Assembly (NCBI GenBank): GCA_003497765.1
Contig: DNNY01000111.1
Span: 1-8,135, forward strand
Source: Oceanospirillaceae bacterium
GTDB lineage: Bacteria; Pseudomonadota; Gammaproteobacteria; Pseudomonadales; Balneatricaceae
Reading direction: 5' to 3'
Length of the DNA: 8,135 nucleotides
Of the stretch, positions 1-8,135 are shown piece by piece. Position numbers and translations under genes: made by a program. Below the pieces are notes generated by a model. It did not search any database and had not been told where the DNA came from. It saw only the letters and a program-made list of their open reading frames with translations. Numbering within the stretch: the stretch's first letter is position 1; each line of letters begins with the position of its first letter.

Positions 1-1
1 A

Positions 2-658
2 GCGGAAACAGGGGTTACTGAAGGACTATTGATTGGTGGCGGTGTAACGAATCCAGTAGGCGAGTTTAGTAGTTCTATGGAAGTACTAGAGACGGGTTTA
101 TTTGAAAAGTATGGTATGCAGAAAATGGGATTAGCAGGCCATCCCGAAGGCAGCCCAGATATTTCTCCAGCAGATTGTGCCTTGGCAATTCAACAAAAAA
201 ATGATTACGCCAAACAAACAGATATGCAGCTTTATTTGGCCACCCAATTTGCCTTTGAAGCGGCGCCTATATTTGCTTGGGAACGCTCAATTCGTGCTGC
301 TGGTAATCAGCTACCAGTGCATATTGGCGTGCCAGGTTTGGCGACCATAAAGACCTTAATGCGGCATGCTGCTCATTGTGGCGTAGGGGCTTCGGTCCGA
401 TTTTTAACTCGTAACCCAGTAAACATGCTTAAGTTATCCCTAAAAGATTCGTTCTTAGGTAAATACGTTAACGCGCCTTCTTCGGAGCCGAGTGCGTTAG
501 TGCGTGATCTAGTTGTGGGTATGGCTGCTGATCCAGAGTGTTTGATTAAGCAATGCCATCTGTACCCTCTGGGCGGCTTAAAGAAATCAGCGCAATGGAT
601 GTATAAGGTGCAGGATGGCCGTTTCACCATTAACAGCAAGGGTTTTACCGTGAGCTAG
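2..658 (+). CDS. MetF-like methylenetetrahydrofolate reductase family protein, 5' truncated
   Basis: The reading frame is open from the left edge (codon at 2-4) to the TAG at 656-658, so about 219 C-terminal residues are present. Family members are about 300 residues long, so roughly 80-90 N-terminal residues are missing; the TTG at 29 is internal and not a start. The protein reads as a flavin-dependent TIM barrel. HPEGSPDIS sits where E. coli MetF has its YPEVHPEA stretch, TQFAFE matches TQFFFD, VHIGVPG matches the strand before the substrate loop, and CHLYPLGGLKKS matches the last strand (FHFYTLNR). The expected reaction is interconversion of methyl-THF and methylene-THF. Next to a methyl-THF:corrinoid methyltransferase, oxidation of methyl-THF during substrate demethylation is the more likely direction (inference). 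One oddity is LIGGGV where classical MetF has LRGD. Family assignment is good; it is unlikely to be the biosynthetic MetF of the methionine pathway. Confidence 0.85.
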   Translation, partial: AETGVTEGLLIGGGVTNPVGEFSSSMEVLETGLFEKYGMQKMGLAGHPEGSPDISPADCALAIQQKNDYAKQTDMQLYLATQFAFEAAPIFAWERSIRAAGNQLPVHIGVPGLATIKTLMRHAAHCGVGASVRFLTRNPVNMLKLSLKDSFLGKYVNAPSSEPSALVRDLVVGMAADPECLIKQCHLYPLGGLKKSAQWMYKVQDGRFTINSKGFTVS

Positions 659-685
659 ATTGTTACTAAGTTATCCTTAGCTCAC
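650..685. repeat. Nested inverted repeats between the reductase and the methyltransferase
   Basis: GTGAGCTA (650-657) and TAGCTCAC (678-685) form a perfect 8-bp inverted repeat with a 20-base spacer. It begins within the last codons of the reductase gene. A second perfect inverted repeat, CTAAG-N5-CTTAG (666-680), lies in the spacer and overlaps the right arm. No T-run follows directly, so it is not a typical terminator. It could be an mRNA processing hairpin or an operator for the downstream gene. The structure is seen directly; the role is unknown. Confidence 0.4.
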
Positions 686-697
686 AACTGTCGCATT

Positions 698-703
698 TAT
701 AAT
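698..703 (+). promoter_or_regulatory. Candidate -10 element for the methyltransferase gene
   Basis: TATAAT is a perfect -10 hexamer 30 bp before the ATG at 734, but no good -35 stands 16-18 bp upstream (675-680 reads CCTTAG). The same bases can instead fold into an AT-rich hairpin, 690-708 with loop 698-700 and two or three G-T pairs, followed by GTTTTATTCTT. That would be a weak terminator for the reductase gene. Sequence alone does not decide between the two; an activator-dependent promoter is also possible. Confidence 0.35.
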
Positions 704-733
704 GTGGCGTTTTATTCTTAATAGGAAAATATC

Positions 734-1627
734 ATGACCGATACAATTATCAGTTCAGCAACCAAAGAAGTAGTGATTGGCTTTGATCGCCCTTTTGCCG
801 TAATTGGTGAGCGCATTAATCCAACTGGCCGTAAGTTGTTAGCTGAAGAGATGAGAAATGGTGATTTTAGTCGGGTAGAGGCCGATGCTTTGGCGCAGGT
901 AGCGGCTGGTGCTATGGTGCTAGATGTCAATGCCGGTATTCCTTTGGCGGATGAGCCAGCTATTTTGGCACAAACCATTGAACTGGTGCAGTCATTGGTT
1001 GATGTTCCATTGGCAATTGATTCTTCGATTATTGAAGCTCTAGAAGCCGGTTTGAAAGTATATAAAGGTAAGGCACTATTGAATTCAGTGACTGGTGAGG
1101 ACGAATCATTAGAACGTGTCCTACCCTTGGTTAAAAAATATGGCGCTGCTGTAGTAGCTATTTCTAATGATGAAACGGGTATTTCACAAGATATCAATGT
1201 GCGCTTTGATGTAGCTAAAAAAATTGTTAATAGGGCTGCAGACTATGGTATTCCTGCCTCAGACGTTGTGGTTGACCCTTTGGTTATGCCCGTAGGAGCG
1301 ATTAATACCTCCGGCCGCCAAGTAATGGAGCTAGTCCACCGTTTGCGGACTGAGTTAAAAGTTAATACCACTTGCGGCGCCTCTAACTTTAGTTTTGGTT
1401 TGCCCAATCGTAACGGGGTTAATTGTACCTTTATTGCCTGTGCTATAGGTGCTGGTATGACTTCTGCCATCGTCAACCCAATGCACGAAGAGGTGATGCT
1501 AGGTATTCGCGGTGGTGATTTAATGATGGGACATGACCCAGAATGCAAAAACTGGATTAAGGCTTACCGTGAGCCCACTCCTGAGCGCGAAGGTGGCCGT
1601 GGTGGTCGCCGTCGCCGTCGTGGCTAA
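734..1627 (+). CDS. Methyltetrahydrofolate:corrinoid protein methyltransferase (AcsE/MtgA type)
   Basis: A 297-residue pterin-binding TIM-barrel protein of the dihydropteroate synthase/MeTr superfamily. It should move a methyl group between the cobalt of a corrinoid protein and N5 of tetrahydrofolate in the cytoplasm. Seen motifs are GERINPTGRK (25-34), LDVNAG (63-68), IDSS (95-98), LNSVTGE (116-122), VVDPLVMP (179-186) and CGASNFSFGLPNR (214-226). D96, N117, D181 and N218 fall at almost the same spacing as the pterin-contacting Asp75, Asn96, Asp160 and Asn199 of Moorella AcsE, so the folate site appears intact. It lacks the cobalamin- and homocysteine-binding domains of MetH, so it needs a separate corrinoid partner, which is not in the window. 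An AGGA at 723-726, 7 bp before the ATG, supports the start. It begins 75 bp after the reductase gene and ends at a terminator. The C-terminus (about 285-297) is a Gly/Arg tail ending GRRRRRG, outside the barrel. Confidence 0.92.
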   Translation: MTDTIISSATKEVVIGFDRPFAVIGERINPTGRKLLAEEMRNGDFSRVEADALAQVAAGAMVLDVNAGIPLADEPAILAQTIELVQSLVDVPLAIDSSIIEALEAGLKVYKGKALLNSVTGEDESLERVLPLVKKYGAAVVAISNDETGISQDINVRFDVAKKIVNRAADYGIPASDVVVDPLVMPVGAINTSGRQVMELVHRLRTELKVNTTCGASNFSFGLPNRNGVNCTFIACAIGAGMTSAIVNPMHEEVMLGIRGGDLMMGHDPECKNWIKAYREPTPEREGGRGGRRRRRG

Positions 1628-1647
1628 TATCTTAAAAATAAATAAAC

Positions 1648-1668
1648 ACGGGGCTTTAATGGCCCCGT
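1648..1668 (+). terminator. Rho-independent terminator after the methyltransferase gene
   Basis: A 7-bp GC-rich stem, ACGGGGC (1648-1654) paired with GCCCCGT (1662-1668), encloses a 7-base loop. It starts 20 bp after the stop codon, is preceded by an A-rich stretch and is followed by a short T-rich tract (ATTTAG). The weak T-run suggests incomplete termination, which would leave some read-through into the activator gene at 1779. The remaining bases from 1669 to 1778 hold no gene and no convincing promoter that I can see. Confidence 0.8.
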
Positions 1669-1778
1669 ATTTAGTTGCTAATATGCAATTTGTTTGGCTA
1701 GCAAAGCTAACTTTAAAAATCAGTAAGTTGTTAAACCTTCACTTTCTAAAGTTTGGGTAAAGGATCGAGAGCAATATT

Positions 1779-3806
1779 ATGACTAATCAGGCTGATGAGG
1801 TTTTGGTTGTATTTACGCCTTCAGGGAAACGCGGTAGGTTCCCTGTGGGTACGCCTTTACTGCAGGCTGCACGCTATTTAAATGTGGATATTGACTCGGT
1901 ATGCGGTGGTCGCGGTATCTGTGGTCGTTGTCAGATTTTGGTCAGTGAAGGTGAATTTGCTAAATTTGGTATTATCTCCACTGCTGATAGCTTAGAACCT
2001 ATTACCGCACCAGAAATAAAATATGCTGAACGCCGAGAACTAAAACCCGGGCGTCGATTAAGTTGTCATACTAAAGTCCTTAATGACATCGTAGTTGATG
2101 TGCCAGCGGAAAGTCAGGTGCACCACCAAACTATTCGCAAAGGTGCTGAACATCATGAAATTTCTCTCAACCCCTTGGTACATTTGTACTATGTTGAAGT
2201 GCAAGAGCCTGATATGCATGACCCATCGGGTGATCTACGCCGTTTATTAAATGCCCTTGAACAAGACTGGCAACTGTCTGACTTAGATTATGACGTATCC
2301 TTATTACCCCAATTGCAGACCACATTGCGACAAGGGAAGTGGCGTGTAACTGTAGCGGTTCGAGAGGGTAAACAAGTCGTTGCTGTGTGGTCCGGTTTTC
2401 ATGATCGTTTATACGGAATTGCTGTTGATGTGGGCTCCACCACCATTGCTGCACACTTATGTGACTTGGTTAGTGGTGAGGTGAAAGCCAGTGCTGGGGT
2501 AATGAATCCTCAAATACGCTTTGGCGAAGACTTAATGAGTCGTGTCTCTTATGTGATGATGAATCCTGGTGGCGAGCAGGAGATGACCAAGGTAGTGCGT
2601 GAAGCCTTAAATAACTTGGTGCTTGATTTAGTGCAGCAGGCAGCTTGCGAGATCACAGATATTTTAGAAATTACTTTTGTAGCCAACCCCGTAATGCATC
2701 ATTTGCTATTGGGTATTAATCCAGTTGAGCTGGGTGGTGCACCTTTTGCTTTAGCTACAGATATGGCAGTTAGTAAGCTAGCTAAAGATATGGATATATA
2801 CCTTAACCCGCAGGCGCGAGCCTATTTGTTGCCATGTATTGCCGGTCATGTGGGTGCGGATACCGCAGGGATGGTTTTAGCTGAGGAGCCCTTTAACCAT
2901 GATGCCATGACATTGCTGGTAGATGTGGGCACCAATGCTGAGATTGTGCTTGGGAATCGCCATCGTTTGGTAGCTTGTTCTAGTCCCACAGGGCCAGCTT
3001 TTGAAGGCGCGCAAATAAGTTCAGGACAGCGCGCTGCTGCTGGTGCTATTGAACGTATTCGAATCAATCCAGAAACCCTAGAACCACGTTATCGCGTCAT
3101 TGGCTGTGAAATCTGGTCCGATGAAGAGGGTTTTACCGAAGCTGTTGCTGATTCAGGTATTACGGGTATTTGTGGATCTGGAATAATTGAAGTGGTAGCG
3201 GAGCTCTATTTAGCAGGTGTTATTAATCAGGATGGTGTGATTGATGGCAACTTAGCTGCACAAAGCTCACGAATTAAGGCTGATGGTCGGACTTTTGCCT
3301 ATGAAATATTACCGGCTACAGAGCAACATTCAGCCATAAAAATTCTTCAAAATGATGTGCGTGCTATCCAATTGGCCAAAGCGGCGCTCTATGCTGGCAT
3401 CAAACTATTAATGGATTATCAAGGTGTCGATCGGGTTGAACGCATTCGTTTAGCTGGTGCCTTTGGTAGTCATATTGATGTAAAGTACGCCATGGTACTT
3501 GGCCTGATACCAGATTGTAAATTAGATCAGGTGTCTGCAGCAGGCAATGCAGCAGGTACTGGGGCCCGTGTCGCGTTGCTAGATCAAGAATCGCGGCCTG
3601 TTATTGAGACTGTGGTAAGGCAAATTGAAAAAGTTGAAACAGCTGTTGAGCCAGCTTTTCAAGACTACTTTGTTAATGCTATGGCTTTCCCTAACAAGCA
3701 AGATCCTTTCCCTGAGCTAGCAAAAGAGGTGGCCTTGCCAAAACCCAAAGAAATCGCTTCAGCTGCTGACTCTCGCGATCTTAGACGGCGTCGTAGAAAG
3801 CGTTAG
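1779..3806 (+). CDS. RACo-type reductive activator of corrinoid proteins (2Fe-2S ferredoxin + ASKHA ATPase)
   Basis: A 675-residue cytoplasmic protein expected to reduce inactive Co(II) corrinoid protein to the active Co(I) form, driven by ATP. The N-terminal ferredoxin-like domain (about 6-115) has C42, C48, C51 and C96, a C-X5-C-X2-C...C pattern for one 2Fe-2S cluster. A linker/middle region (about 116-210) leads into the C-terminal ASKHA domain (DUF4445 type). Its nucleotide-site motifs are GIAVDVGSTT (213-222), LLVDVGTNAE (around 379-388), GICGSG (463-468) and LAGAFG (558-563). The length is typical for the family (about 630-680). The start is supported by GAGAG at 1767-1771, 7 bp before the ATG; AAGGA at 1760-1764 is further away. 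It is separated from the methyltransferase by a terminator and converges with the regulator downstream, 27 bp apart, with no clear bidirectional terminator between them. The C-terminus ends in an Arg/Lys run, LRRRRRKR (668-675). The electron donor is unknown. Confidence 0.92.
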   Translation: MTNQADEVLVVFTPSGKRGRFPVGTPLLQAARYLNVDIDSVCGGRGICGRCQILVSEGEFAKFGIISTADSLEPITAPEIKYAERRELKPGRRLSCHTKVLNDIVVDVPAESQVHHQTIRKGAEHHEISLNPLVHLYYVEVQEPDMHDPSGDLRRLLNALEQDWQLSDLDYDVSLLPQLQTTLRQGKWRVTVAVREGKQVVAVWSGFHDRLYGIAVDVGSTTIAAHLCDLVSGEVKASAGVMNPQIRFGEDLMSRVSYVMMNPGGEQEMTKVVREALNNLVLDLVQQAACEITDILEITFVANPVMHHLLLGINPVELGGAPFALATDMAVSKLAKDMDIYLNPQARAYLLPCIAGHVGADTAGMVLAEEPFNHDAMTLLVDVGTNAEIVLGNRHRLVACSSPTGPAFEGAQISSGQRAAAGAIERIRINPETLEPRYRVIGCEIWSDEEGFTEAVADSGITGICGSGIIEVVAELYLAGVINQDGVIDGNLAAQSSRIKADGRTFAYEILPATEQHSAIKILQNDVRAIQLAKAALYAGIKLLMDYQGVDRVERIRLAGAFGSHIDVKYAMVLGLIPDCKLDQVSAAGNAAGTGARVALLDQESRPVIETVVRQIEKVETAVEPAFQDYFVNAMAFPNKQDPFPELAKEVALPKPKEIASAADSRDLRRRRRKR

Positions 3807-3833
3807 CAAGCTTTTAACTTATGCACTTTTAAA

Positions 3834-4874
3834 CTAATTTGTTGTAATTTGGGGGTCGACTTCTTCGGCATCTGCGTGGTTAGCGGATGAATTTAGTTGA
3901 CTACCTGTTCCTGGTGCAAAGCGGCGCCTTTCTTCTCGTGGTGGAATGCCAAAGAAGTCCCGATAACACTTTGAAAAATGAGGGGCTGAGACAAAACCGC
4001 AAGCTAAAGACACATCAATAATGGACAGATTGGTCTGTAATAAAAGCTGACGGGCTCGGTTTAGACGCAACTCCAGATAATAGCGTGAGGGTACACATTT
4101 CAGGTGTTTCTGGAATAAGCGCTCAAGCTGTCGACGAGATACCCCAACATACCTAGCTAAATCGTCTAATGATATGGTTTCTTCTAGATTGGCTTCCATT
4201 AGGGCAACAGCTTCGATTAATTTGGGTTGGCTATTGCCTAGATGTAAGCGCAATGGAATACGTTGGGTATCATGATGGTCGCGAATACGTTCCATAATAA
4301 ACATTTCTGACACAGCGGCAGCCAATTCAGGGCCTTGTTGTTGGCCAATTAGTTGCAGCATCATATCCAGTGAAGAATTGCCCCCAGAACAGGTAAAGCG
4401 ATCTCGGTCGATAGCAAATAGATTAGAAGACATTAAAATATTTGGAAACTCTTCACGCATACCAGCTAGATTTTCCCAATGAATAGTGCACTTATAACCT
4501 TCTAACAGACCCGCTGCGGCGAGTAGATAGCTCCCTGTGCAGGTCGAGCCTAAATTAACCTTGGCATTAGCTACTTTGCGCAGGAAACTTAAGGTGTTTT
4601 TATCAAAGGCACGATCAATGTATGTGCCACCACAAACCACTAAGGCTTCTAAACCGGTCAAATTTAGCTCATGAATAGACTTTGTAGGACCCACATCAAA
4701 ACCTACGCTAGCAGTCACAGGAGTACCAGTCATGGTAACAATTTCCCACTCATACAGAGTTTGCCCACTGATATAATTAGCACCTCGTAAGGCTGCCACA
4801 GCAGACGAGAAGGTGATCATTGAGTAACTTGGAACTTGTAAAAATGCATAGCGTATAGGCTTTGTCATATTCAT
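3834..4874 (-). CDS. GlxA/GbdR-like transcriptional regulator (DJ-1/PfpI domain + AraC HTH)
   Basis: A 346-residue regulator. The N-terminal DJ-1/PfpI (class I glutamine amidotransferase-like) domain spans about 8-190. It has CGG (81-83) and an elbow, STCTGSYLLAAAGLL, with C112; in this family the domain senses ligand rather than acting as an enzyme. The AraC C-terminal domain (about 215-318) has two helix-turn-helix units, LDDLARYVGVSRRQLERLFQ (236-255) and SIIDVSLACGFVSAPHFSK (284-302), and ends in GIPPREERRR. The motifs FTCSGGNSSLDMML, ISLDDLARYV, SRRQLERLFQKHL and GFVSAPHFSKCYR strongly recall Pseudomonas GbdR, which responds to glycine betaine and dimethylglycine; SouR and CdhR are related alternatives for sarcosine and carnitine. 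It is convergent with the activator gene and probably controls the methyl-transfer cluster (inference). A short polar tail (about 319-346) follows the DNA-binding domain. Two ATGs (4874 and 4868) are possible starts, and neither has a strong ribosome binding site. Confidence 0.88.
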   Translation of the reverse strand: MNMTKPIRYAFLQVPSYSMITFSSAVAALRGANYISGQTLYEWEIVTMTGTPVTASVGFDVGPTKSIHELNLTGLEALVVCGGTYIDRAFDKNTLSFLRKVANAKVNLGSTCTGSYLLAAAGLLEGYKCTIHWENLAGMREEFPNILMSSNLFAIDRDRFTCSGGNSSLDMMLQLIGQQQGPELAAAVSEMFIMERIRDHHDTQRIPLRLHLGNSQPKLIEAVALMEANLEETISLDDLARYVGVSRRQLERLFQKHLKCVPSRYYLELRLNRARQLLLQTNLSIIDVSLACGFVSAPHFSKCYRDFFGIPPREERRRFAPGTGSQLNSSANHADAEEVDPQITTN

Positions 4875-4932
4875 TTAATTGCCCAGTTTTTGTCACTATT
4901 AGAAATAATTGACTGGTTTATTGTTTTCGGCA

Positions 4933-4962
4933 ATTGTAGACCAGATTTAGCACTGTTGGTAA
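4933..4962 (-). promoter_or_regulatory. Candidate promoter of the GbdR-like regulator
   Basis: On the minus strand TTACCA (4962-4957) and TACAAT (4938-4933) are separated by 18 bp and lie about 60 bp upstream of the regulator ATG. Match to the sigma70 consensus is moderate (4/6 and 5/6). The whole gap 4875-4995 is AT-rich and contains no other gene; no terminator for the LysR-type gene was recognised in it. Confidence 0.3.
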
Positions 4963-4995
4963 GCATAATTTTCTAAATTTAAGTATTTATTTTGG

Positions 4996-5862
4996 CTATA
5001 AAGTTTGGATTAAAGACATCAATTGTTGCGCTGGATTAGACAGACTTCTTTGCTTGTGGCTAACACAACCTAACTGTCTGACAATTGTGGGGATATTACT
5101 TGCGATGGCAGTGATATCATTGTTTAACAGAGTATGAGGTAATAGGCTCCAACCCATACCCGTGCTGGCCAACATTCGGAGAGTATCCAAGTTATTTGTT
5201 GATGTGGCTACAGGTAGGTCAACTTTGGCTTGATCAAAACGTTGATTAAGTAGTTCGCGGGTAAAAGTGCCAGGCTTACTAAGAAGCGCATCATAATTGC
5301 CTAAGTCCTGTAAACATACATTTTGCGCAATGGCTAAGGGATGACTGGGCGAACATACAAAATGCATTTCGTCCTGCCAGACCACTTCTTGTTGTAATTG
5401 TTTGTGCGGTTGAGGACTTAACGTAATAATACCAATTTCCCATAAACCCTCCAGAACACCTTGGTATATGACTTCTGATTCGGCAAATTGAATATCTAGT
5501 TTTACCTTAGGAAAAGCTTGTTGGTACGCGCGCAAATAAGGAGGCAAGCGATGTAAGCCAATATGATGGCTGGTAGCAATACGTAATTCACCTTCCACAC
5601 GGCCAGACAAGTTACTTAGTTCACGACTTGTATCCTCTAAGGTTGCCAATATATGTTGGGCTTTGGGTAATAGAACCATACCCGCATCAGTTAGATGTAT
5701 ATGACGGCCTATACGATCGAATAGGCGGGCATTTAGCTGCTGCTCTAATTTATCTATGCGCTTGCTAATTGCTGGCTGGGTTAAATACAGTTGTTCTGCA
5801 GCTTGGGAGAATGAGCCCAATCTGGCGACAGTAACAAAGGCCTGTAGTTGTTGCGTGTCCAT
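4996..5862 (-). CDS. LysR-type transcriptional regulator divergent from leuCD
   Basis: A 288-residue LysR family protein starting at the ATG at 5862 (MDTQQLQAFVTVARLGSF). The winged HTH occupies about residues 2-60, with FSQAAEQLYLTQPAISKRI as the recognition region and LEQQLNARLFDR as the wing. A linker helix and a periplasmic-binding-protein-like effector domain (about 90-288) follow. Length is normal for the family. The frame stays open upstream to a TTG at 5937, but that would add 25 residues not seen in LysR proteins and would run across the operator, so 5862 is preferred; no strong ribosome binding site precedes it. It is transcribed divergently from leuC, and a LysR-type regulator in this position is known in pseudomonads. 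It probably activates leuCD in response to a leucine-pathway intermediate such as isopropylmalate (inference). A separate role for the GbdR-like gene downstream is not excluded, since both point the same way. Confidence 0.9.
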   Translation of the reverse strand: MDTQQLQAFVTVARLGSFSQAAEQLYLTQPAISKRIDKLEQQLNARLFDRIGRHIHLTDAGMVLLPKAQHILATLEDTSRELSNLSGRVEGELRIATSHHIGLHRLPPYLRAYQQAFPKVKLDIQFAESEVIYQGVLEGLWEIGIITLSPQPHKQLQQEVVWQDEMHFVCSPSHPLAIAQNVCLQDLGNYDALLSKPGTFTRELLNQRFDQAKVDLPVATSTNNLDTLRMLASTGMGWSLLPHTLLNNDITAIASNIPTIVRQLGCVSHKQRSLSNPAQQLMSLIQTL

Positions 5863-5902
5863 ATAAATTAGGTGTGTTTTAAGTAAAACTAAACTTATCC
5901 TA

Positions 5903-5908
5903 AGTATA
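5903..5908 (-). promoter_or_regulatory. Candidate -10 of the LysR-type regulator promoter
   Basis: TATACT on the minus strand (5908-5903) lies about 40 bp upstream of the regulator ATG. The region where its -35 should be is occupied by the palindrome at 5919-5933, so a protein bound there would block this promoter. No good -35 hexamer is seen. Confidence 0.45.
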
Positions 5909-5918
5909 GTGCATTTGT

Positions 5919-5933
5919 ATTCCAAAATGGAAT
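5919..5933. promoter_or_regulatory. LysR-type operator (T-N11-A palindrome)
   Basis: ATTCCA-AAA-TGGAAT is a perfect inverted repeat with 6-bp arms and contains the LysR-type T-N11-A core (T5920 to A5932). Its centre at 5926 is about 65 bp upstream of the predicted leuC transcription start (about 5991), the usual place of the LysR recognition site. It also overlaps the -35 region of the regulator's own promoter. The palindrome is seen directly; binding by the adjacent regulator is inferred. Confidence 0.65.
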
Positions 5934-5978
5934 CCAATATATAAAAAATATGAATTAGAGTTATTGTTGATCTGTACG

Positions 5979-5984
5979 TATAAT
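5979..5984 (+). promoter_or_regulatory. Candidate -10 of the leuCD promoter
   Basis: TATAAT is a perfect -10 hexamer 75 bp before the leuC ATG. At 16-18 bp upstream there is no recognisable -35 (TTAGAG at 5955-5960 is a poor match). A strong -10 with a missing -35 fits a promoter that depends on an activator bound upstream. Confidence 0.6.
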
Positions 5985-6048
5985 ATCCTCAATAGTCGAA
6001 GATAGCGTTATTATTAATGTTATTCCTAGTTAGATAGAGACAAATAAC

Positions 6049-6054
6049 AGGAGG
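6049..6054 (+). promoter_or_regulatory. leuC: Strong leuC ribosome binding site
   Basis: AGGAGG stands 5 bp before the ATG at 6060 and fixes the leuC start. It immediately follows AATAAC (6043-6048), the right arm of a possible leader hairpin. Confidence 0.85.
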
Positions 6055-6059
6055 CTGAG

Positions 6060-7493
6060 ATGGCCGCAAAGACACTTTACGATAAGCTTTGGGATGCGCA
6101 TTTAGTTCATCAACAAGAAGATGGTAGTTGCCTGATTTACATTGATCGTCACCTATTGCATGAAGTCACCTCACCACAAGCTTTTGAAGGCTTGCGTATA
6201 GCTGGCCGTAAACCATGGCGTATAGATACTAACCTTGCCACACCAGATCATAATGTGCCAACCACGACTCAGGAACGTTCTGAAGGTGTCAATGGTATTG
6301 CCGATCCGGTGTCAAAAATTCAGGTTATGACTTTAGGTGAAAACTGTGATCACTTTGGTATCACTGAGTTTAAGATGCAAGATGCTCGCCAAGGTATTGT
6401 CCATGTTGTAGGTCCAGAGCAGGGTGCTACCTTGCCCGGCATGACAGTAGTATGTGGTGATTCCCATACCGCCACTCATGGTGCTCTGGGTGCCTTGGCT
6501 CATGGTATTGGTACTTCAGAAGTAGAACATGTATTGGCTACCCAATGCCTGATTCAGAAGAAATCCAAAAATATGCTGGTCAAAGTTGATGGTATATTGG
6601 GTAAAGGCGTTACTGCTAAAGATGTAGTTTTGGCTATTATTGGTGAAATTGGTACTGCTGGTGGCACTGGTTATGCCATTGAATTTGCCGGACAAGTGTT
6701 TGCTGATATGTCTATGGAAGGTCGCATGACAGTCTGTAATATGGCCATTGAAGCAGGTGCTAGAGTTGGTATGGTAGCCGTTGACAAAACGACCATAGAC
6801 TATGTAAAAGGTCGTCCTTATGCACCTAAAGGTGAACAATGGGATATGGCTGTAGCCGCGTGGCAAGATCTGCATTCTGATGCTGATGCGGAGTTTGATC
6901 AAGTCGTGGTTATGGATGGTAGTAAGATTGCCCCGCAAGTGACTTGGGGTACGTCCCCAGAAATGGTGCTGCCAGTATCGGCACAGATTCCCAATCCAGC
7001 GACAGAGCAGGATCAAGTTAAAGCCAGTAGTATTGAACGGGCACTTGCATATATGGGTTTGCAAGCTGAGCAAGCCATTACGGATATTCAGTTAGATCGA
7101 GTATTTATTGGCTCTTGCACCAATAGTCGTATTGAAGATTTGCGGGCAGCAGCAGAAGTAGTTGCTGGCCATAAGGTCGCTGCAACGATCAAACAAGCGT
7201 TAGTCGTACCTGGTTCTGGTCTGGTAAAACAACAGGCTGAGGCGGAAGGTTTGGATAAGATTTTTGAAGCTGCCGGTTTGGAGTGGCGTGAACCTGGTTG
7301 TTCCATGTGTTTGGCCATGAATGCCGATAAATTAGGTGCTGGCGAACACTGTGCTTCAACCTCAAATCGCAACTTTGAAGGGCGCCAAGGCAATGGTGGT
7401 CGCACCCATTTAATGAGTCCTGAAATGGCAGCAGCCGCGGCTATTACCGGACATATTGTGGATGTTAGAGAATTTACTGGAGATCAATCATGA
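6060..7493 (+). CDS. leuC: 3-isopropylmalate dehydratase large subunit LeuC
   Basis: A 477-residue protein of the aconitase superfamily. With LeuD it isomerises 2-isopropylmalate to 3-isopropylmalate, the second step of leucine biosynthesis from 2-ketoisovalerate, in the cytoplasm. The three 4Fe-4S ligands are visible as C353 in GSCTNSR and C414/C417 in PGCSMC, matching Cys347, 407 and 410 of the 466-residue E. coli enzyme. The N-terminus ([16 protein letters not shown], then [19 protein letters not shown]) is near-identical in pattern to other LeuC proteins. [19 protein letters not shown] lies at about 137-155. The ATG has an AGGAGG 5 bp upstream. The stop codon overlaps the leuD start by 4 bp (ATGA), showing translational coupling. 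Nothing is missing or broken. leuB would be expected further right, outside the window. Confidence 0.98.
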
Positions 7494-8135
7494 AGGCTTT
7501 TACACAGCATCAAGGCTTAGTTGGGCCAATGGATCGCGCAAATGTGGATACGGATATGATTATCCCCAAGCAATTTCTGAAATCCATTAAGCGCAGTGGC
7601 TTTGGCCCCAATTTGTTTGACGAGTTGCGCTATCTGGACGAGGGGCAGCCCGGTCAAGATTGCAGTCAACGTCCGCTCAATCCAGATTTTCCACTGAATT
7701 TGCCGCGCTACAGTGGCGCTAGTATTTTGCTAGCCCGAAAAAACTTTGGCTGTGGTTCCAGTCGCGAACATGCGCCTTGGGCATTGGAGGACTTCGGTTT
7801 TCGCGCAGTTATAGCGCCGAGTTATGCAGATATTTTTTACAACAACTGCTTTAAGAATGGTTTGCTTCCAGTGGTTTTGAGTGAGCAACAATTAGATGTG
7901 TTATTTGCAGAAATGTATGATCAAGAGGGCTATCAGTTAACTATCGACTTGGTTCAACAGAAAGTTGTGCGCCCCAACGGTGAAAGCTTTGATTTTGAGA
8001 TTGATCAGTTCCGCAAAGACTGCCTGATTCAGGGTTTGGATGAGATTGGTTTAACTTTGCAATCGACTCAGGATATTAAAGACTATGAAAAAACCCGCGC
8101 TGAGCAACAGCCATGGGTATTTGGAGCAATTAAAT
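7490..8135 (+). CDS. leuD: 3-isopropylmalate dehydratase small subunit LeuD, 3' end cut by the window
   Basis: The frame starts at the ATG overlapping the leuC stop and stays open to the right edge, giving 215 codons without a stop. LeuD is usually 200-216 residues, so almost the whole protein is present and the stop is probably within a few codons. It forms the swivelling substrate-recognition domain that closes over the LeuC iron-sulfur site. Visible motifs are [22 protein letters not shown] (about 9-30) and [13 protein letters not shown] (87-99), the diagnostic LeuD/aconitase-C signature. They are followed by [18 protein letters not shown] (about 112-129), typical of the family. Coupling by ATGA overlap implies one-to-one expression with leuC. 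Confidence 0.97.

Follow-up and report, generated by a model that had tools for sequence, protein, structure and literature searches.

Putative aerobic MtgBCDE-type gene run in an Oceanospirillaceae genome, with arginine-rich tails on the partner enzymes of its corrinoid protein

The DNA analysed here, from now on the window, is the whole 8,135-nucleotide contig DNNY01000111.1 (C144) of a 1.58-Mb metagenome-assembled genome of an Oceanospirillaceae bacterium. Its left part carries genes predicted to move methyl groups between a corrinoid protein and folate. On the forward strand, it opens with the 3' part of metF2 (2..658, 218 codons; the 5' part lies on another contig, C90), followed by mtgD, for a methyltetrahydrofolate (methyl-THF):corrinoid methyltransferase (734..1627), and ramA, for a RACo-type corrinoid activator with a 2Fe-2S domain (1779..3806). 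A gene for a predicted GbdR-like regulator of the AraC/GATase type is convergent with ramA on the reverse strand (3834..4874). The initial annotation, made from the window alone, had described a MetF-like reductase, a methyltransferase, a RACo-type activator and a GbdR-like regulator lying together, and all four are indeed there. It had also stated that the window holds neither a corrinoid protein nor an MttB gene, which is correct; the genome has both.

Regarding the encoded proteins, MtgD matched NF005719 with 360 bits (cut-off 259) and also PF00809 above its cut-off. Across 41 aligned MtgD proteins, Asp96, Asn117, Asp181 and Asn218 are invariant, presumably as counterparts of the residues with which MeTr binds methyl-THF. 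The activator contains the RACo linker, middle and C-terminal domains of Pfam together with the 2Fe-2S domain, all above cut-off, and its motif C-x5-C-x2-C-x44-C (Cys 42, 48, 51 and 96, the predicted 2Fe-2S ligands; 1902..2066, forward strand) fits the latter. The methyl branch of the acetogen CODH/ACS system (AcsE, AcsV) was considered for both proteins and rejected, with 133 of 370 bits for MtgD (NF040758) and 400 of 800 for the activator (NF040756). The window part of MetF2 gave a weak match to TIGR00677 (22 bits versus a cut-off of 310) and matched no Pfam family; a profile of 22 MetF2 relatives matched the solved methylenetetrahydrofolate reductase 7xg9 (E 4e-76). MetF2 is predicted to be a divergent enzyme of this type that would oxidise methyl-THF. 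By their sequences, the MetF2 proteins (window 2-658; 8987-9922 in L042, from the relative ARS48) appear to form a divergent methylenetetrahydrofolate reductase branch for which Pfam has no model.

The corrinoid protein was found by searching the same genome for B12-binding domains, which led to C90. Positions 3227-3377 of this contig match window positions 1-151 in 150 of 151 bases (one mismatch), and in the relative Oceanospirillaceae ARS48 both stretches are contiguous, with 95.5% identity to C90 and 92.0% to window 1-7860. Hence, mtgC lies directly upstream of the window, on C90. The initial annotation had proposed looking leftward for a B12-binding protein and an MttB-family gene, and had made its case depend on such genes near the cluster; because mtgC is the immediate upstream neighbour, the outcome favours its observation, with the MttB genes lying on other contigs. 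The resulting gene order is folD (reverse strand), mtgC, DUF1638, metF2, mtgD, ramA and gbdR (reverse strand), of which C90 carries folD, mtgC, the DUF1638 gene and the start of metF2. In ARS48, a serine hydroxymethyltransferase gene (glyA) precedes folD. MtgC is a standalone protein of 233-236 residues with PF02607 and PF02310 both above cut-off, and the DUF1638 protein matched PF07796 with 98 bits. Membership of MtgC in the NCBIfam MtgC models was tried and rejected (NF047996, 216 of 370 bits; NF047995, 183 of 310 bits). No riboswitch upstream of mtgC passed the Rfam threshold in nine sources, the only matches being two PYLIS_3.

The remaining partners are encoded elsewhere in the genome. 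Four MttB (PF06253) genes, whose products share 22-51% identity, are all on contigs outside this gene run. MttB_C61 adjoins mtgE, a choline-sulfatase gene (757 bits, cut-off 433) and a gene for an AraC-type regulator (best model GbdR, 261 of 480 bits); of the four, it comes nearest to MtgB, a glycine betaine methyltransferase of Desulfitobacterium (46.5% identity). MtgE, also outside the mtgC-ramA run, is of the betaine-homocysteine methyltransferase type (PF02574, 211 bits; NF005718, 458.8 versus a cut-off of 338). MttB_C3 is followed by two genes, each with a DAO and a folate-binding GCV_T domain, a make-up that we take to be that of dimethylglycine/sarcosine dehydrogenases, and MttB_C14 lies near a DctP/DctQ/DctM transporter. 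A pyrrolysine-type MttB was rejected: the four frames are open without stops and gave 228-320 of 525 bits with TIGR02369. The two PYLIS_3 matches above the Rfam threshold lie inside stop-free MttB frames (L039 4537-4636 and L041 7079-7178) and reflect homologous coding sequence, not an insertion element.

Every component of the Ruegeria pomeroyi system is present here, so that the window is, judging from its predicted genes, part of an aerobic MtgBCDE glycine-betaine demethylase/split methionine synthase. The initial annotation had read it as a corrinoid demethylation module feeding folate in an aerobe, and this is well supported: the genes it predicted to be missing exist, and COX1 occurs in all 15 genomes of the genus, supporting the aerobic setting. 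Its proposal of an alternative route was right in substance, although not new, since the route was published for R. pomeroyi in 2025 (PMC12478193). As for MtgC and MtgD, it captured the demethylation role and missed the role in methionine synthesis (PMC12478193). The substrate in this organism would be a compound such as glycine betaine, and the GbdR-like gene likely acts as a betaine-responsive regulator.

What appears to be undescribed before is that each type of enzyme expected to meet the cobalamin of MtgC (MttB, MtgD, MtgE and RamA) carries an arginine-rich tail, and that MtgC itself starts with an acidic extension. MtgD ends in GGRGGRRRRRG (residues 287-297; 1592..1624, forward strand), the activator in DLRRRRRKR (residues 667-675; 3777..3803, forward strand) and MtgE in KRRSRRR, the N-termini of the four MttB proteins are arginine-rich, and the N-terminus of MtgC reads MSDDQYEDDLDLSTLSDEELVEQMHDD. 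To quantify these ends, we used a first set of 86 sources (the window, contigs of its own genome and L042-L121) and scored a net charge of at least +4 in the last 20 residues, or, in the first 25 residues, of at least +4 (MttB) or of -6 or less (MtgC), leaving out frames cut by contig ends (3 of 81 for MtgD) and matches under the score limits. The C-terminus reached +4 in 74 of 78 MtgD, 49 of 56 RamA and 5 of 5 MtgE proteins. Among controls, the figures were 2/54 for DUF1638, 0/27 for MetF2, 4/16 for GbdR, 2/51 for MtgC and 0/39 for MttB. The N-terminus of MttB reached +4 in 35 of 39 cases. Other open frames of the same loci gave 75/687 at the C-terminus and 140/679 at the N-terminus, two backgrounds that come from a crude longest-open-reading-frame rule and may include false genes. 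MtgC started at -6 or less in 50 of 50 cases (other frames, 2 of 679), as did 118 of 120 of its database relatives among the matches listed. In all 40 sequences of an MtgC alignment, the extension that precedes the first cap helix carries a net charge between -3 and -9.

The tails are also conserved within the genus. The MtgE tail ends in RRSRRR in 13/13 loci, 12 of them at +4 or more, and MttB reaches at least +4 in 27 of 28 best-scoring loci; a second PF02574 paralogue has no tail in the five loci read, of seven. Identity among the 41 MtgD proteins is 42% in the tail versus 72% in the core, with the charge kept, and the tails are RGG-like in composition (27% arginine and 21% glycine). The terminal segment is the most charged of its own protein in 52 of 78 MtgD, 28 of 39 MttB, 44 of 50 MtgC and 4 of 5 MtgE cases. 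An effect of base composition was considered and dismissed in view of the 44% GC content of the window, the mixed arginine codons (CGT, CGC, CGG and AGA) and the control frames from the same loci.

To see how far the pattern extends, we surveyed 299 Pseudomonadota genomes, calling MtgC of this type above 340 bits (the next match had 129). MtgC was found in 39 of them, MTTB in 39 and RACo in 48, with MtgC and MTTB together in 38; G139 has MtgC without MTTB, and in G124 MTTB is present only as a 73-residue piece. MtgD accompanies MtgC in 38 of 38 genomes other than our own, and RACo in 39 of 39. A second set was drawn from this survey as the best 30 loci per search (MtgD in 30 of 38 genomes, MtgC in 29 of 38, RamA in 30 of 39), plus the 29 best MttB matches, own genome aside, of a much longer list. 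In this set, which covers MttB, MtgD, MtgC and RamA (MtgE being counted in the first set and the genus), the tail was present in 29/29 MttB, 28/30 MtgD and 27/30 RamA proteins (26/29 without that of the window), and the acidic start in 27/29 MtgC proteins, where estimates of the start site may account for the two misses. Over stretches longer than 800 bases, no MtgD locus of the second set exceeds 95% identity with any locus of the first.

Several groups of relatives served as controls. RACo proteins of genomes without it have no tail (0 of 9). Among the nine corrinoid proteins beside these tail-less activators, one starts at -6 or less (L292, -8, with four residues before the cap), although in L297-L300 the alignment sets in late, which makes the start estimate unreliable. 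The N-terminus reaches +4 in 1 of 120 relatives of the Desulfitobacterium MtgB, and the C-terminus in 2 of 120 relatives of the Carboxydothermus AcsE, each group being close relatives of one seed and not independent events. Solved relatives fit this picture: the alignment starts at query residue 34 for 2qne and at residue 25 for 1y80, while 4yyc (query 5-508) has an arginine-rich start. AlphaFold models gave pLDDT (the confidence score of the model) below 50 for MtgD residues 287-292 and 294-297 (41-sequence alignment), in accordance with a disordered tail. The models predict a free basic tail and, on the acidic side, a short free end plus an acidic folded cap.

In the genus, the MetH activation domain (Met_synt_B12, PF02965) is absent from all 15 genomes, including the eight most complete ones; 13 of the 15 have a tailed MtgE, and the MetE-type domain PF01717 passes its cut-off in 3. 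All 15 have MTTB matches, some partial, at 3-15 per genome; G014 has 15 of these and the other 14 genomes 3-7.

According to these results, the best explanation of the whole is a system of the MtgBCDE type for demethylation and methionine synthesis in which arginine tails would dock on MtgC, and we give it a probability of about 0.7. One of the four MttB-type enzymes would methylate Co(I)-MtgC, MtgD would pass the methyl group to THF, and MetF2 would oxidise methyl-THF to methylene-THF, which the FolD encoded next door (together with serine hydroxymethyltransferase in ARS48) could process. RACo and RamA proteins use ATP, and RamA would here rescue oxidised Co(II) with ATP and electrons from its 2Fe-2S domain. 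MtgE would take the methyl group to homocysteine, and the GbdR-like gene would likely switch the set on with betaine. Docking would occur by charge between the tails and the acidic end of MtgC, replacing the covalent linkers of MetH: like these, the tails may raise the local concentration of partners around MtgC while allowing quick exchange. The strongest argument for this docking is that the tailed proteins must meet cobalamin, while MetF2 and DUF1638, which presumably need not, are tail-less. We put at even odds the further idea of a charge code, in which the tails are interchangeable plugs for the acidic N-terminus of MtgC and new MttB paralogues join the hub by carrying one. The matter bears on how, in split B12 systems, one small corrinoid protein finds four partner enzymes in turn. 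If the idea is true, the tail would be a sequence marker for MttB-like genes that plug into the hub, as well as a transferable docking tag for engineering.

One could argue that the tails serve another ligand, such as nucleic acid, polyphosphate or membrane, with a role in localisation. RGG-like sequences often bind RNA, and both the composition of the MtgD tails and the low model confidence at residues 287-297 agree with this. However, the tails sit on the partners of MtgC-cobalamin, whereas few DUF1638 proteins (2/54) and no MetF2 protein (0/27) have one, the acidic extension of MtgC is found in 40 of 40 aligned sequences, and the activators of genomes without this MtgC lack tails (0/9). We regard this alternative as unlikely, though the most serious of those considered. 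It is also conceivable that the tails are neutral relics, carried along when the gene set moved by horizontal transfer. The set is common to contigs of Proteobacteria, Acidimicrobiia and Chloroflexi with its order largely conserved, so that shared descent is enough to link many of the tail cases. Against this stand the presence of tails in four protein families and at different termini, their retention by all four MttB paralogues despite identities as low as 22%, and an MtgD tail that diverges more than its core while keeping its charge; a neutral origin seems to us quite improbable. About equally improbable is that MtgC, MtgD, MtgE and RamA form mainly a split methionine synthase, with betaine demethylation minor or absent in this organism. 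The missing MetH activation domain (15/15), the tailed MtgE (13/15) and the supply of methionine by the same modules in Phaeobacter inhibens (PMC5764234) speak for it. The 3-15 MTTB matches in every genome point instead to catabolism, as do metF2 within the run, the GbdR-like neighbour and the MttB genes that adjoin choline-sulfatase and DAO-GCV_T genes; besides, MtgE is encoded outside the run.

Several observations weigh against the docking system as proposed. The genome is incomplete (67%), the GbdR-like protein falls just under the cut-off of NF052371 (462.6 versus 480 bits), and the arginine/glycine-rich tails may bind other ligands. In the first set, the charge threshold is missed by seven RamA proteins and by four each of MtgD and MttB, and in RamA the terminal segment is the most charged in just 26 of 57. 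The charge of MtgC correlates weakly with that of its partners across loci (MtgD, rho -0.34, p 0.019; RamA, p 0.22; MttB, p 0.32), these values being uncorrected for kinship and one of the three tests giving p < 0.05. In a Paracoccus MtgC (L173), the start is less acidic. Part of the acidity of MtgC is not special, since chain 1y80 also has an acidic first cap helix; and in the model of MtgC from the 40-sequence alignment, pLDDT is below 50 for residues 1-8 and about 96 for residues 11-20, so that much of the acidic stretch is confidently folded and not a free tail. Finally, two genomes of the genus, G003 and G012, gave no PF02574 match, and the methionine branch is therefore not universal. 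G003 has a PF01717 match of 99 bits, and G012, which is 95% complete, gave no match to PF02574, PF02965 or PF01717.

The rest of the window encodes a LysR regulator (4996-5937, reverse strand), leuC (6060-7493) and leuD (from 7490 onward). DNA similarity to ARS48 ends at position 7860, and the C-terminus of LeuC and LeuD (7490-8135) are unlike their ARS48 counterparts in protein sequence, which suggests replacement, recombination or a mixed assembly.

Among known systems, the closest is that of R. pomeroyi DSS-3, with which our genome shares an MttB-family MtgB, a standalone MtgC, MtgD, MtgE, RamA and DUF1638, as well as a predicted metF2 beside mtgD and the lack of MetH. PMC12478193 reports, from proteomics and deletion mutants, that both glycine betaine use and methionine synthesis in R. 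pomeroyi depend on MtgC and MtgD, and that deleting mtgD abolishes growth on glycine betaine even when methionine is supplied. Two MtgB proteins increase on glycine betaine, no protein is induced more than the MetF2 encoded beside mtgD, and N-osmolytes raise the levels of RamA and DUF1638. The paper also reports mtgC in Gammaproteobacteria, absence of MetH as typical (about 70% of cases) and high expression of the glycine betaine demethylase in the ocean. A term search of its main text found no mention of arginine-rich or acidic ends, and a literature search that left out subscription papers and supplements found no titles or abstract openings on charged tails of corrinoid methyltransferases. 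Our case differs in its gammaproteobacterial host, whose nearest named relative is filed as Oceanospirillaceae, and in having mtgC, DUF1638, metF2, mtgD and ramA in one run with a GbdR-like neighbour. P. inhibens likewise has three separate MetH modules with RamA-like and DUF1638 proteins, and its Bmt (MtgE) can be active alone in vitro (PMC5764234, PMC12366255). By locus number, the genes for its pterin-binding and RamA-like proteins are separated from the other three, whereas here all but mtgE are in a single run with metF2. Contigs filed under Acidimicrobiia and Chloroflexi show the order mtgC, DUF1638, mtgD, ramA, mttB, and of the Rhodobacterales loci L103-L121 most have a metF2 homologue adjoining mtgD. 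On the Azoarcus plasmid pAZKH (L172), the metF2 slot is taken by PF13769, PF12225 and canonical PF02219 methylenetetrahydrofolate reductase genes. The PF13769 'virulence factor' protein of this plasmid is encoded between the DUF1638 and reductase genes (7180-7512), a setting in which the family name looks misleading.

More distant systems share chemistry and folds. The Desulfitobacterium MtgA/MtgB/MtgC proteins (solved chains 2qne and 9yce, and 4o0q, which we take to be MtgA) belong to similar fold families, and relatives of their MtgB nearly all lack the basic N-terminus, unlike the MttB proteins described here. AcsE (MeTr) and AcsV/RACo are of the same superfamilies as MtgD and RamA, the AcsE relatives being nearly all tail-less. 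In MetH and on a Peptoclostridium acidaminophilum plasmid (L171, 7107-9488), the same modules (PF02574, PF00809 and PF02607/PF02310) occur, in the latter fused in one chain of 793 residues without an arginine tail; its folate module is 39.5% identical to MtgD, and the protein is a single-chain equivalent of the split system. Lastly, a corrinoid protein that docks through its N-terminus is already known in MtaC, whose extra N-terminal domain sits in a groove of MtaB; in MttC, the cap domain contacts MttB (PMC9842639).

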